Below are positions 1,495-7,294 of a stretch of 7,294 bases of DNA, piece after piece; position 1 is the first letter of the stretch, and each line of letters begins with the position of its first letter. The position numbers and the translations under genes were made by a program. The notes under the pieces were generated by a model. It had not been told where the DNA came from. It saw only the letters and a list, made by a program, of their open reading frames with translations, and made no database searches. The DNA comes from JALSIF01 sp026981635 [NCBI: bacterium] (lineage in GTDB: Bacteria > 4484-113 > JALSIF01), in contig JALSIF010000284.1 in the NCBI GenBank assembly GCA_026981635.1, positions 1 through 7,294 of the forward strand, read 5' to 3'.

Positions 1495-2907
1495 CTAGAA
1501 GATCATCACCAGGGAGGCGAGGAGGCGGTTTTGGGGGGAGGGCAGGGACTGGTCCCAGGTGCGCTGGGCCTCAAGCTTCAGGGTGAGGTTTTGGTCCAGG
1601 GGGAAGTTCAGGCCCAGGGTGAGGCGGCGTTTACGGCCGAGGGAGGGGTCGGAGGAGGTGTCCACTCTGCCCAGGCGGGCGAAGAGCTTGGGGAGGGTGC
1701 CCTGGCGCCAGGCGAGGGAGGGGAGGGGAAGTTCTCCCTGCAGGTACCAGCCCCACATCCAGGAGGGGAGGTCGGGGTTGTCGGCGGAGATGCTGGCGCG
1801 AGCAAACTCGGCCAGGATGCGGTAGCCGTGCCTTTCCCACTGGAGGTAGGCGGAGAGGTGGTCCAGGCGGCCGCCCTGAGAAAAGGAGGTTTGGTACCAG
1901 CTTCCCCCCACGGTAAGCTCCCGGCTGGGCTCAAGCTGGAGGTTCAGGGTGGTGGCCTTCCCGCTGAACTCCTCCTCGCCCCAGCTTGGAAGGGCCTCCC
2001 TGAGACCTTCGTCGGAGATGGAATCTTCAAGTCCTTGGCTGAGGAGAGCGATGATGCGCACCTTGTCGTTGGGCTCGCTGACCAAACCCACGCCCAGTTC
2101 GCTCCAAGCAGCCGGGATGATCCCTTCTGCCATGATAGGCTGGCTTGCCCCGGTGATCTCGTAGGGCTCGTGGTGCATGCCCAGATGACCCACCGGAATT
2201 ATCAGGGCCCCAGCCCGAAGCTTGAGACCTTCGGTTAGCTGGTGATCTATGCGGGCGCGTTCAATCTCTACTGCACCCCCATCTTCTCCCCCCTCAATCC
2301 CTCCTTCCTCCCACTCAATCTCCACGCAGATGTCGTCCAGGGGGGTAACCTGGCCCTCTATCTCCAGACTCACATGGGGGAGGGAGAAGGTGGAGCCTCC
2401 CTCGTCCTTGTTGCTGTTGAAGCGGTAATCAATAAACCCCTTCCACTCAAGACCGTGTTCCTCTTCCTCGTCGTGTTCAAAAGTGCCATGCCCCGGCATT
2501 GATCTCCCCATCTGGTCCGGTTCAAGCTCATCCCCACTGGGCGGGCGGGGCATTCCTTCCATCTCGTCGGCGTAGCTCAGCAGAAGGTGGAATAGAACTG
2601 CCTGGACCGGAGCAGGAATCTGCTCTCCCTGCTCCATCCTACTTGAGGCTCGCTTCAGGGCAGCCATTACTGCCTGGCTGGGTGGCCGGATGAGCTCCTC
2701 GTGAGTCAGCAGGCCGTTTTCGGCCAGGTAGCCTAGCGCCTGGGCGGTCCACTCTGTTGACCTCTCCAACATAGATGAGAGGTGGCTTGATGCAACTTCC
2801 CCTGCTCCTGGGTTAGTGGCCATCGCCCCTAGTGGGGCAGCCAGCCAGGCTGCAGTCAGACCGACGATACCTGACGCAAGGAGTCTTGCTGTTCCTGTTA
2901 CCCGCAT
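1495..2907 (-). CDS. Outer-membrane porin-like protein with degenerate SLH region
   Basis: This complete 470-aa protein starts at an ATG preceded by GGGAGGT, 7 nt upstream. Residues 1-30 look like a signal peptide (LGAMA cleavage before TNP). Residues 51-67 (TEWTAQALGYLAENGLL) align with the SLH start of the downstream paralogue (GHWSYQAVTYLQSQGVL), but the diagnostic TRYDFA is replaced by PSQAVMA, so this SLH looks decayed. Instead of the paralogue's coiled coil there is a His/Asp/Glu-rich linker near residues 140-153 (HGTFEHDEEEEHG). A beta-barrel follows from about residue 155 (GFIDYRF), with LRAGALIIPVGHLGMHHEP and IIPAAWSELGVGL resembling phosphate-selective or general porin sequences. 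It ends LLASLVMIF, the terminal Phe expected of a BAM-recognised barrel. It is the upstream member of a tandem pair, with 121 bp before the next gene and its own CRP-like site. Pore function is inferred; the substrate is unknown. Confidence 0.8.
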   Translation of the reverse strand: MRVTGTARLLASGIVGLTAAWLAAPLGAMATNPGAGEVASSHLSSMLERSTEWTAQALGYLAENGLLTHEELIRPPSQAVMAALKRASSRMEQGEQIPAPVQAVLFHLLLSYADEMEGMPRPPSGDELEPDQMGRSMPGHGTFEHDEEEEHGLEWKGFIDYRFNSNKDEGGSTFSLPHVSLEIEGQVTPLDDICVEIEWEEGGIEGGEDGGAVEIERARIDHQLTEGLKLRAGALIIPVGHLGMHHEPYEITGASQPIMAEGIIPAAWSELGVGLVSEPNDKVRIIALLSQGLEDSISDEGLREALPSWGEEEFSGKATTLNLQLEPSRELTVGGSWYQTSFSQGGRLDHLSAYLQWERHGYRILAEFARASISADNPDLPSWMWGWYLQGELPLPSLAWRQGTLPKLFARLGRVDTSSDPSLGRKRRLTLGLNFPLDQNLTLKLEAQRTWDQSLPSPQNRLLASLVMIF

Positions 2908-4659: not shown

Positions 4660-5427
4660 ATGGATATTGCGACGGTAATCGGCTTGGTGGTGTCCTTTAC
4701 GGGCTTTCTGGGGGGATTCGTACTAGAAGGGGGACATCTCAGTTCCCTGATCCAGATCTCAGCCATGGTCATAGTATTTGGGGGTACTTTTGGTGCAACC
4801 ATGGCATCTTTCCCCTTAGACAAGAGCATCTCACTCCCCATGTTAATGCTCAGGTCGGTTCTTCACACGAGTGAGAACCCTCGTGAGATTATTAGACAGT
4901 TTGTGGCTTTTGCCGACAAGGCTCGCCGGGAGGGTCTTCTGGTACTGGAGGAGGACATCCAGAATGTGCGAGATGATTTCCTCCGTCGGGGAATTCAACT
5001 CGTGATTGATGGCACCGACGCCGAGTTGGTCAAGGAGGTGCTCAAGGCGGAGGTTGAGTACATGCGCCACCGCCATGAGGTGGGGATTCAGTACCTGGAG
5101 ACCTTGGGAGCGTATGCACCTACCTTTGGGATCATCGGAACTGTTATGGGCCTAGTTCATGTGCTCTCCAACCTTTCTGATCCCAGCAGTCTTGGGCCGG
5201 CCATTGCGGCTGCCTTCCTGGCCACCCTCTATGGTGTGGTCAGTGCCAACGCCGTATTCCTCCCCATCGGGAGCAAGCTGAAGATCGTGAGCGCCCACGA
5301 GGCCCACATCCGGGAGATGATCATTGAGGGGGTGCTCTCCATCCAGGCGGGAGACAACCCCCGCATCGTCAAGGAAAAGCTGAACGCTTTCCTGCCTCCC
5401 AAGCAGAGGCTGGGCGAGGAGGAGTAG
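4660..5427 (+). CDS. motA: Flagellar motor stator protein MotA
   Basis: MotA is an inner-membrane protein that assembles with MotB into the ion-driven stator turning the flagellar rotor. The 255-aa product has normal family length. Helices 1-2 cover residues about 3-22 and 30-50, with the typical FGGTFGATMASFP turn. A cytoplasmic loop carries FADKARREGLLVLEED (84-99), including the conserved basic/acidic residues that contact FliG. Helices 3-4 lie at about 147-170 and 180-203, with the two family prolines in APTFGIIGTVMGL (P154) and FLPIGSKL (P202). The ATG at 4660 is the only possible start, since an in-frame TGA lies at 4618 with no other start codon after it. The SD is poor (GGA only), and the leader is full of hairpins. 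motB follows 3 bp after the stop. Proton versus sodium coupling cannot be decided from this view. Confidence 0.96.
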   Translation: MDIATVIGLVVSFTGFLGGFVLEGGHLSSLIQISAMVIVFGGTFGATMASFPLDKSISLPMLMLRSVLHTSENPREIIRQFVAFADKARREGLLVLEEDIQNVRDDFLRRGIQLVIDGTDAELVKEVLKAEVEYMRHRHEVGIQYLETLGAYAPTFGIIGTVMGLVHVLSNLSDPSSLGPAIAAAFLATLYGVVSANAVFLPIGSKLKIVSAHEAHIREMIIEGVLSIQAGDNPRIVKEKLNAFLPPKQRLGEEE

Positions 5428-5430
5428 GAG

Positions 5431-6216
5431 ATGGGCGGACACGGCGGAGGGATGATGCGGTGGCTCATCACCTACGCCGACATGATCACCCTGCTTTTGG
5501 CCCTGTTTGTGGTCTTCTTTGCCATGGCCAACCAGGACCTGCAGAAGTTTGAGGCCCTGGCCAAGAGCCTGCGGCAGGGATTTGCCGGTCCCTCCCTGGG
5601 GGCCACCATTCCCTTTGACGAGGGGGGAGCCCAGCAGCCCATTGAGGGGGGCGGGCTTACCAGGCTTACCACCCCCATCCAGATCTTCAACTTCCCCCGC
5701 TTTGAGCGCCAGCTCCAGGAGCAGCTCAAAAGGATACTTAAGGAGAAGGGGCTCAAAGTAAAGGGGGCAGAGATCAAGTTCTATGTCAATGAGCGGGGAG
5801 TAGTAATAGACATTCACCCAGCAGAGCTTCTCTTTGACACCGGAAAGGCCGATCTCAAGCCCGAGCTGCTGCCCATCCTGGAGGAGATCGCTAAGGTGCT
5901 GAAGGATCTGCCTAACCCCATCGCCATTGAAGGCCACACTGACCCCCGGCCCATAAACACGGTCAAGTTTCCCTCCAACTGGGAGCTCTCCGCTGCTAGG
6001 GCGGCGGCGGTTTTGAGGTTCTTTGAGGAAAAGGGGGTACCCCGCTGGCGGATGCGCATTGCCGGCTACGCCGACACCCGCCCCATCGCTTCCAACGATA
6101 CCACCGAGGGAATGGCTCGCAACAGAAGGGTACAGATTGTGATCCTCAGGGGAGAGACCGCATCGGAAGAGAAGCCGGCTGCAGGCTACCTAGCTACAAC
6201 TGATGATGGGGGCTAA
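5431..6216 (+). CDS. motB: Flagellar motor stator protein MotB
   Basis: MotB is the stator subunit that carries the ion-binding aspartate and anchors the complex to peptidoglycan. The 261-aa product has one membrane helix at about residues 11-33 (RWLITYADMITLLLALFVVF), with the essential Asp at position 17 in the canonical YAD motif. A periplasmic plug/linker follows, then an OmpA/MotB peptidoglycan-binding domain at about 115-238: LLFDTGKADL (133-142), EGHTDPRPI (167-175), SNWELSAARA (182-191), GYADTRPI (212-219) and RNRRVQI. The cytoplasmic N-terminus is short and glycine-rich (MGGHGGGMM), whereas MotB usually has a longer charged segment. The ATG is preceded by GAGGAGGAG embedded in the end of motA, suggesting translational coupling. 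A second start at residue 8 or 9 is possible but would leave almost no residues before the membrane helix. Confidence 0.95.
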   Translation: MGGHGGGMMRWLITYADMITLLLALFVVFFAMANQDLQKFEALAKSLRQGFAGPSLGATIPFDEGGAQQPIEGGGLTRLTTPIQIFNFPRFERQLQEQLKRILKEKGLKVKGAEIKFYVNERGVVIDIHPAELLFDTGKADLKPELLPILEEIAKVLKDLPNPIAIEGHTDPRPINTVKFPSNWELSAARAAAVLRFFEEKGVPRWRMRIAGYADTRPIASNDTTEGMARNRRVQIVILRGETASEEKPAAGYLATTDDGG

Positions 6217-6260: not shown

Positions 6261-6620
6261 ATGGCTCGCCGGGGCGATACAAATAGACCTGGTGGTTCCC
6301 ACCCCCGAGAGAGCCGCCTTCCTTCGGGGAGGTGGGTGGCGGGTGCGGTGCTTATGTTTCTGGTTGTAGTGGTTGCTATCTGGGTGGCAACTAGCCGTCC
6401 AGAGATACTAGGTATTCGTCCCAACCCAACCGCTAACTTTGGTGGAAAGTTTGGCGAATTCGTCGGGACCACCCTGGGCATGCCCTACATCGGAGACATG
6501 CGCACCCAGCGCTACTATCGCAACACTCCGGAGAAGAGGAAGGAGATTCCGGAGGACGAGCAGGTCTACTTCAAGAGTCGGGAGGCGGCGGAAAAGCGGG
6601 GCTTCAGGCCCGGCTACTAG
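6261..6620 (+). CDS. Membrane-anchored protein with Ada-type zinc-module-like C-terminus, cysteines lost
   Basis: This 119-aa gene lies between motB (45 bp upstream) and fliL (72 bp downstream) on the same strand. The start is supported by GAGGAG 4 nt before the ATG. Residues 1-24 are basic and polar, and one hydrophobic helix spans about 25-44 (WVAGAVLMFLVVVVAIWV). With positive charges before the helix, the C-terminus should be periplasmic. Residues 76-119 (YIGD..., IPEDEQVYFKSREAAEKRGF, RPGY) resemble the small metal-binding module of Ada and Ada-like proteins (VYF-SREEA-GYRPCKxC). However, no cysteine is present, Gly118 sits where the first Cys of CxxC would be, and the protein ends two residues after RP. 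A zinc role is therefore unlikely. The Ada resemblance is from memory, not a search. A structural or accessory role at the stator is inferred only from position. Confidence 0.75.
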   Translation: MARRGDTNRPGGSHPRESRLPSGRWVAGAVLMFLVVVVAIWVATSRPEILGIRPNPTANFGGKFGEFVGTTLGMPYIGDMRTQRYYRNTPEKRKEIPEDEQVYFKSREAAEKRGFRPGY

Positions 6621-6640: not shown

Positions 6641-6667
6641 TTACGAAGCGGGGCTTTTGGCCGATAA
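6641..6667 (+). promoter_or_regulatory. Sigma-28 (FliA)-type promoter before fliL
   Basis: GCCGATAA at 6660-6667 is an exact match to the sigma-28 -10 consensus. The -35 region at the right spacing (TTACGAAG at 6641-6648, against TAAAGTTT) matches poorly. Transcription would start near 6674, inside or just after a T7 run (6668-6674), leaving a roughly 20-nt leader with AAGGGGG before the fliL ATG at 6693. The flagellar context makes it plausible; the weak -35 lowers confidence. Confidence 0.4.
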
Positions 6668-6692: not shown

Positions 6693-7294
6693 ATGCCCGA
6701 GGAAGAAACGGTTGAGGTTGAAGAGGTAGCCCCGAAGAAGGGCCCCAATGTCCTCATCGTGGCCATCGCAGCCGCCCTACTTGCGGTGGTGCTCTCGGTG
6801 GGAGCGATGCTGGTCATCCTGCCCAGGGTGGTAGGCGGCAAGGGCGAGGCGGCCAAGGTGAGGGGGGAAGAGAAGGTGGTGGAGCTGCCTGAGGAGGTGA
6901 TGGTGAGCCTGGAGGAACAGGCCACCTACTACGTCTCGCTGGGGGACTTTCAGGTAAACCTCAAGGATGACTACTTCCTGAAGACCGAGGTTAGTCTGAA
7001 GCTACTGGACTACTCCCGGCTCCACGAGCTGGAGGAGAAGTACAAGACCGAGGGCAAGTCGCGCAAGGCAGAGCTTCCCCCTGAGTACCGCTTCACCTTG
7101 GCAGTTGGGGGAGGGGGCGGGGGCGGGGGTGAGGAGGAAGTCGCTGAACCGCCGGTGGTGCTCATTGTACGCAAAAAGATGCCTGAGATACGGGATCTGG
7201 TGATTGATGTTTTCAATGAGACCACCTCCGATGAGCTGCTCAGCGCAGAGGGCAAGGAGAAGGTTCGGGAGAAGCTTAGAAAGGACATTGATGA
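6693..7294 (+). CDS. fliL: Flagellar basal-body-associated protein FliL, 3' end outside window
   Basis: FliL is a single-pass inner-membrane protein whose periplasmic domain surrounds and supports the MotAB stator. Two hundred codons are visible and the frame is open at the window edge. Residues 1-18 are an acidic/basic cytoplasmic tail and 19-44 the membrane helix (NVLIVAIAAALLAVVLSVGAM). The FliL domain starts with ATYYVSLGDFQVNLKDDYFLKTEVSLKLLD (77-106) and resumes with KKMPEIRDLVIDVFNETTSDEL (161-182) and SAEGKEKVREKL (184-195). Between these blocks, residues about 108-157 form an insertion, including Gly139-146 followed by EEE, that ordinary FliL proteins (about 150-180 aa in total) lack. 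The start is supported by AAGGGGG 10 nt upstream. It follows the motAB cluster; by analogy fliM is expected downstream, but that is outside the window. Confidence 0.93.
   Translation, partial: MPEEETVEVEEVAPKKGPNVLIVAIAAALLAVVLSVGAMLVILPRVVGGKGEAAKVRGEEKVVELPEEVMVSLEEQATYYVSLGDFQVNLKDDYFLKTEVSLKLLDYSRLHELEEKYKTEGKSRKAELPPEYRFTLAVGGGGGGGGEEEVAEPPVVLIVRKKMPEIRDLVIDVFNETTSDELLSAEGKEKVREKLRKDID
7107..7130 (+). repeat. Four G5 runs with 1-nt spacers encoding Gly8
   Basis: The coding strand of fliL has four G5 runs separated by A, C and C, then T, read as eight Gly codons (ggg gga ggg ggc ggg ggc ggg ggt). This fits the canonical G-quadruplex pattern with minimal loops. The last three units are near repeats of GGGGGC. 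Gain or loss of one 6-bp unit would keep the reading frame and change the linker by two glycines, whereas slippage of a single G would frameshift. Confidence 0.85.

Follow-up and report, generated by a model that had tools for sequence, protein, structure and literature searches.

Periplasmic proteins that assist the flagellar stator and are encoded together with the stator genes have precedents (PMC10954123). In alphaproteobacteria, MotC is encoded downstream of motB; MotE and MotK are periplasmic proteins that interact with MotB2 and are required for the motor to rotate (PMC10954123). One accessory of this kind has different effects in different phyla, according to a review of the E-ring (PMC13023049). 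Flagellar motors differ between lineages in their periplasmic add-ons and the proteins involved are often unknown. Here we describe a concrete candidate for one lineage, the stator-operon gene ORF X, found in the window (the whole stretch of 7,294 nucleotides that was analysed). It has homologues across the class to which the window belongs and gives an Ada/sunset-type module a flagellar setting.

ORF X and its locus

The plus strand of the window carries gltX, motA, motB, ORF X and fliL, with motB upstream and fliL downstream of ORF X (Table 1). The small gene that an earlier note had claimed at this place is indeed present, and Pfam confirms both of its neighbours. Its start lies 44 bases after the motB stop, preceded by a Shine-Dalgarno-like GAGGAG (recognised by eye), and its stop is 72 bases from the likely fliL ATG, which was favoured, also by eye, over a TTG at 6657. 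The FliL encoded in the window contains a run of eight glycines (7107-7130) inside the region that the FliL profile matches. Four of the five loci from relatives have a lipoprotein-like gene after fliL, which may be a further gene of the class with a link to the motor. On the minus strand there are two adjacent paralogous genes (3-1373 and 1495-2907, identical in 126 of 471 columns) with leader-like starts and beta-rich, porin-like, secreted-looking products; by eye the start of the former is SLH-like, and a Pfam scan gave no match above the cut-off for either.

Table 1. Coordinates of the features discussed. Positions are those of the window, except for the lipoprotein-like genes, which are numbered within the named loci of relatives.
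Feature	Position	Strand	Basis or remarks
motA	4660..5427	+	PF01618, PF20560
motB	5431..6216	+	PF13677 (5.7e-18); OmpA, PF00691 (5.2e-20)
ORF X (stator-operon ORF)	6261..6620	+	119 aa, ATG start, no Cys
Predicted membrane helix, residues 24-45	6330..6395	+	AlphaFold2 helix; regional pLDDT about 60-80
Juxtamembrane FGxxxxxF stretch, residues 60-67	6438..6461	+	Family alignment
Cysteine-free Ada-like module (predicted), residues 75-119	6483..6617	+	AlphaFold2, structure search, hhalign
Tyr86, first ligand (His/Cys) position	6516..6518	+	Alignment with Ada-like modules
Pro90, second ligand (Cys) position	6528..6530	+	Alignment with Ada-like modules
Gly118-Tyr119-stop, where relatives carry CxxC	6612..6620	+	Alignment
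fliL	6693..7294, runs off window end	+	PF03748 (2.6e-11)
Lipoprotein-like gene after fliL, L002	1-786	-	
Lipoprotein-like gene after fliL, L003	2439-3177	+	
Lipoprotein-like gene after fliL, L004	1-498	-	
Lipoprotein-like gene after fliL, L006	1-499	-	

The ORF X family has eight copies (E up to 0.01) in six of the ten genomes sampled from the class, as single genes in G000, G001, G005 and G007 and as tandem pairs in G002 and G004; the tandem pairs occur in one family of the class and lipoprotein-like versions in another. The linkage to motB and fliL is well supported: all eight copies, and so every homologue in the class at this threshold, sit between the two, and in each of the six genomes Pfam identifies the neighbours as MotB and FliL. 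ORF X was found in the six class genomes with MotB (PF13677) and the export protein FlhA (PF00771) and in none of the four without them. The odds of such a pattern under random assignment, calculated by hand, are 1 in 210, although its true weight is lower because three of the four negatives belong to a single family and the genomes are in several cases incomplete (seven of the ten are less than 92% complete, and the fourth negative, G008, is 84% complete).

MotB was detected in 164 of 385 genomes overall and in 158 of the 375 outside the class, and in these 158 there was no match of the family profile beside motB at E up to 0.01. At the same threshold the profile matched in 12 genomes outside the class, five of them with MotB. 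The matches in G044 and G189 are about 265 and 80 kb away from the listed MotB, while those in G087 and G291 are on other contigs. The fifth match, in G075 (E 0.0099), was rejected: judged by eye it is a triosephosphate isomerase, and the 3.1 kb read there contain no MotB. A scan of 51 MotB-type loci outside the class, comprising 27 of MotB (with 1.5 kb flanks) and 24 of MotB relatives (some of them incomplete), returned nothing at E up to 5. Within the class, G007 gave one further, weak match (C37, E 0.22), which covers residues 3-60 only and was put down to chance.

An Ada-like module without metal ligands

Taken as a single sequence, ORF X provides evidence for a relation to Ada that is sub-threshold and only suggestive. 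The Pfam profile Ada_Zn_binding (PF02805) matches residues 85-117 at E 0.15 and 12.5 bits (cut-off 23), and of the eight family members it matches just one at E up to 10, again below the cut-off. The NCBIfam model named sunset (NF051437) matches residues 101-117 with 18.4 bits (cut-off 27) and E 0.0016, which is its best value among the two of eight members found at E up to 10, and the NCBIfam model for the ArfC sunset domain variant also finds two of the eight (best E 0.00036). An HhH profile (PF21704) matched residues 59-81 with an E value of 0.022, better than that of Ada; being sub-threshold and confined to one of eight members, this match was treated as chance.

It is the homologues, the shuffled profile comparison and the structure search together that put the resemblance to Ada well above chance. 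With hhalign, the alignment of the eight family sequences reaches a probability of 97.5% against five cysteine-bearing Ada-like modules. When the module alone is compared with the same five, the profile-profile score is 53.9 (against 14.8 for the best of 200 column shuffles and 9.7 when reversed), a value that is flattered because the five were picked among matches of the window protein and of the family profile. The comparison with 12 sunset modules, which were gathered with the NCBIfam model and so are free of this selection bias, gave 30.3 (best shuffle 16.5, reversed 15.2). These 12 were taken from 16 rows above the cut-off, after dropping L104 (already a match of the family profile), L108 (a fragment) and L111 and L126 (both in the cysteine-bearing set). 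Ada was not found when PDB sequences were searched with the family profile; most of the 18 sequences returned up to E 10 were triosephosphate isomerases, and even the best of them (E 0.17) was taken as chance. A protein search of the phage collection with ORF X gave no match.

AlphaFold2, run on the family alignment, predicts residues 71-119 with block mean pLDDT of 87-96. The module appears as strands at 76-79 and 84-87, a helix at 90-95, a strand at 101-104 and a final helix at 107-112. In a Foldseek search of the PDB the first match was the Ada structure 1u8b (probability 0.93, E 0.56) and the second was 1wpk (E 1.6), with none below E 0.001. Realignment with VIA against seven chains put three Ada N-terminal domains on top (1u8b Z 5.9, 1wpk 5.0, 1zgw 4.1), followed by RNase H1 at 2.4. 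With the lipoprotein-like G005 relative at its head, a second model has an equally confident module but a weaker resemblance to Ada, on a level with the ribosomal-protein matches of its N-terminal helix: Z was 4.4 for 1u8b, 3.5 for 1wpk and 3.1 for 1zgw (ranks 3, 22 and 23 of 25 rows), and all Foldseek matches had E above 0.7, with 1u8b seventh. The remaining 22 of the 25 rows are nearly all ribosomal proteins, aligned to the N-terminal half or the helix and not to the module. By the structure tool's own guidance, Z values of this size are no proof of homology by themselves, and it is because of the Z values and the profile result together that we take the Ada fold as established at the level of prediction. 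An Ada-like fold of the ORF X C-terminal domain is therefore well supported by modelling, and the earlier note, which had seen an Ada-type module in residues 76-119, was borne out by both profile and structural matches for residues 75-119.

The metal-binding domain of Ada, a zinc-binding DNA-repair module, has four ligands, which are either all Cys or one His with three Cys (identities as in E. coli Ada). The cysteine-bearing relatives of ORF X display an early H-x3-C and a terminal CxxC. None of the four ligand positions is kept in ORF X, where they are taken by Tyr86, Pro90, Gly118 and the end of the chain, which comes two residues after Pro117, at the site of the relatives' CxxC. The same earlier reading, that all metal-binding cysteines are gone and that the protein stops where CxxC is expected, thus holds, and it extends to the class: across the eight family members the first position is occupied by Tyr or Trp and the second by Pro, Asp or Ala, CxxC is present in none, and no homologue has a cysteine at a ligand position, as the only cysteine in any of the modules (G004 copy a) is located elsewhere. 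The module is nevertheless the best conserved part of the protein, with a mean pairwise identity of 40% versus 22% for the rest, so that "remnant", the word used in the earlier note, describes it poorly. Five columns are invariant in the family, four of them in the module (Tyr85, Ile96, Asp99 and Val102) and one, Gly61, before it.

Membrane anchor and location

The single membrane anchor claimed for ORF X agrees with the helix predicted by AlphaFold2. Six arginines are found in residues 1-24, and because of this basic N-terminus the positive-inside rule would place the C-terminus outside the cytoplasm. The other helix-anchored members of the family have basic N-termini as well, while the members from G005 and G007, and less clearly that from G001, have a cysteine after a hydrophobic leader and look by eye like lipoproteins. 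From the basic N-termini and the lipoprotein-like relatives together we infer that the module is periplasmic, held at the inner membrane by the helix and, in one family, perhaps by a lipid. Between the helix and the module, the whole FGxxxxxF pattern is retained in five of the eight members, its glycine in all of them.

Relation to sunset and to cysteine-bearing modules

The earlier note regarded a metal-free remnant fold put to use in the motor as new; for the metal-free fold itself a precedent exists, since cysteine-free Ada-like modules are already catalogued as NCBIfam sunset. Across the 385 genomes the sunset model returned 31 rows at E up to 0.01, with no match in the nine other genomes of the class. 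Among the 29 sunset-profile modules examined (all except the window's own and one row lacking a locus), 22 have no C-terminal CxxC and eight have no cysteine at all in the counted stretch. In our reading, an Ada-like module without the C-terminal CxxC is what marks the sunset family, and by alignment ORF X carries this mark too. What appears to be new, as far as we searched, is the class-wide, flagellum-linked use of a cysteine-free Ada-like module: we found no paper that connects sunset or Ada-like modules with flagella, and no functional paper for an Ada/sunset-type module by name in the open-licence literature.

In a tree of 33 modules the stator family forms a clade with support 0.99 and groups with cysteine-bearing modules, not with sunset (split support 0.84), although the tree covers a subset of the modules seen, is midpoint-rooted and has low deep supports. 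Because of this grouping the stator family may have lost its ligands separately from sunset, a weak indication. The cysteine-bearing modules found in the class itself (L055-L058 and L060) are not supported as the source of the stator family, as the four of them in the tree (L058 was left out) belong to a separate, shorter subtype.

Cysteine-free modules are also present at the C-terminus of other proteins (L104, in the same place as L079, as well as L105 and L109), with no flagellar genes nearby in the sequence read; L079 has a staphylococcal-nuclease (SNase) domain and L109 looks like an SNase. These cases suggest that ligands were lost repeatedly in Ada-like modules. At L107, L127 (G272) and L110 (G136), a 458-aa open frame combines a nuclease-like part with at least two sunset-profile modules per chain. 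The strongest match outside the class (E 1e-7) comes from G214, a genome without a MotB match; this protein (L077, 1468-2181, minus strand), which belongs to no Pfam family, has an intermediate module, with only the first cysteine kept and a basic tail in place of CxxC. The match in G087 (L080, 603-1490, minus strand) is an SNase protein with a cysteine-bearing Ada-like module, at 28.5 bits above the PF02805 cut-off, and it is divergent from a gene of the MotA/TolQ/ExbB family (1802-2287, plus strand) that is probably not flagellar.

Proposed role and alternatives

What is the role of ORF X then? Since it is a small, anchored and probably periplasmic module, whose gene lies between fliL and motB, the gene for the peptidoglycan-binding stator subunit, and is retained only alongside flagellar genes, the best reading is that of a class-specific periplasmic accessory of the stator and FliL, with the metal-free domain serving as a binding surface, to which we assign a probability of about 0.6. 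The domain would be a metal-independent binding module contacting MotB and/or FliL through their periplasmic part, and ORF X could thereby help to recruit, hold or activate the stator, by analogy with MotC, MotE/MotK and MotX/MotY. Of the earlier proposal of a periplasmic MotAB/FliL accessory, the periplasmic motor role is the part made likely by the conserved position between motB and fliL.

A general sunset- or Ada-like envelope protein, binding the cell wall or another envelope component and merely co-transcribed with the stator genes, could look similar. Sunset-type and cysteine-bearing modules do occur in varied proteins, with no visible flagellar link in those examined, and several are fusions with a staphylococcal-nuclease domain, which Pfam confirms in two cases. 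However, a general envelope function would be expected to remain where flagella are absent, and no copy turned up in the four genomes lacking MotB and FlhA; with the position invariant in all eight copies as well, we consider this explanation unlikely. Slightly less probable still is a chaperone-like factor for the assembly or stability of the stator or FliL, acting transiently and not as a lasting structural part. Its appeal lies in the small size, the one anchor and the position directly after motB, and in MotE, which has been proposed to act in this way towards MotC (PMC10954123); the tandem copies of two genomes speak slightly more for a structural part that is hetero-oligomeric.

The loss of all ligands and the chain end at the CxxC site would also be expected if an Ada-like protein, zinc-binding or methyl-accepting, had lost its function and were decaying. 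Such decay is very improbable and largely refuted by conservation: all eight frames are open even though the other seven copies are only 25-32% identical to ORF X, the module is better conserved than the rest and has a confident predicted fold, and the gene is retained where flagellar genes are retained. A fuller history, which we offer tentatively and at somewhat less than even odds, is that the class recruited an Ada-like module, which lost its ligands independently of sunset and became a fixed periplasmic stator component with family-specific versions, namely a single helix-anchored protein, a tandem helix-anchored pair and a lipid-anchored form. The three natural versions (one copy, tandem and lipoprotein-like) represent a built-in comparison.

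Comparison with known systems

The sunset modules resemble ORF X in being Ada-like, in mostly lacking CxxC and in lying, as a rule, near the C-terminus, but ORF X is under the model cut-off and, as noted, most of its family escapes the model. By profile (with the biased choice described above) and in the weakly supported tree, the closest relatives are the cysteine-bearing modules at the C-terminus of nuclease-like or secreted-looking proteins (for example at L008, L080 and L060). The module of L008 can be aligned by eye with ORF X over 42 residues without a gap, sharing the string VYFKSR, and what separates the two groups is that H-x3-C and CxxC are replaced in ORF X by Tyr, Pro, Gly and the chain end. 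With the N-terminal domain of Ada itself (PF02805; 1u8b, 1wpk, 1zgw), residues 75-119 have the predicted fold in common. Unlike Ada, ORF X lacks the ligand cysteines, the methyl-accepting cysteine and any further domain, falls below the Pfam cut-off, and is membrane-anchored and probably extracytoplasmic. Among motor proteins, MotE is described as largely coiled coil and MotK as AMIN-like and TPR-like (PMC10954123); the likeness to ORF X that is proposed here is one of role. Its proposed role would be analogous to those of MotC, MotE/MotK, MotX/MotY and FliL, and several of these also resemble it in gene position, near the stator genes (PMC10954123).
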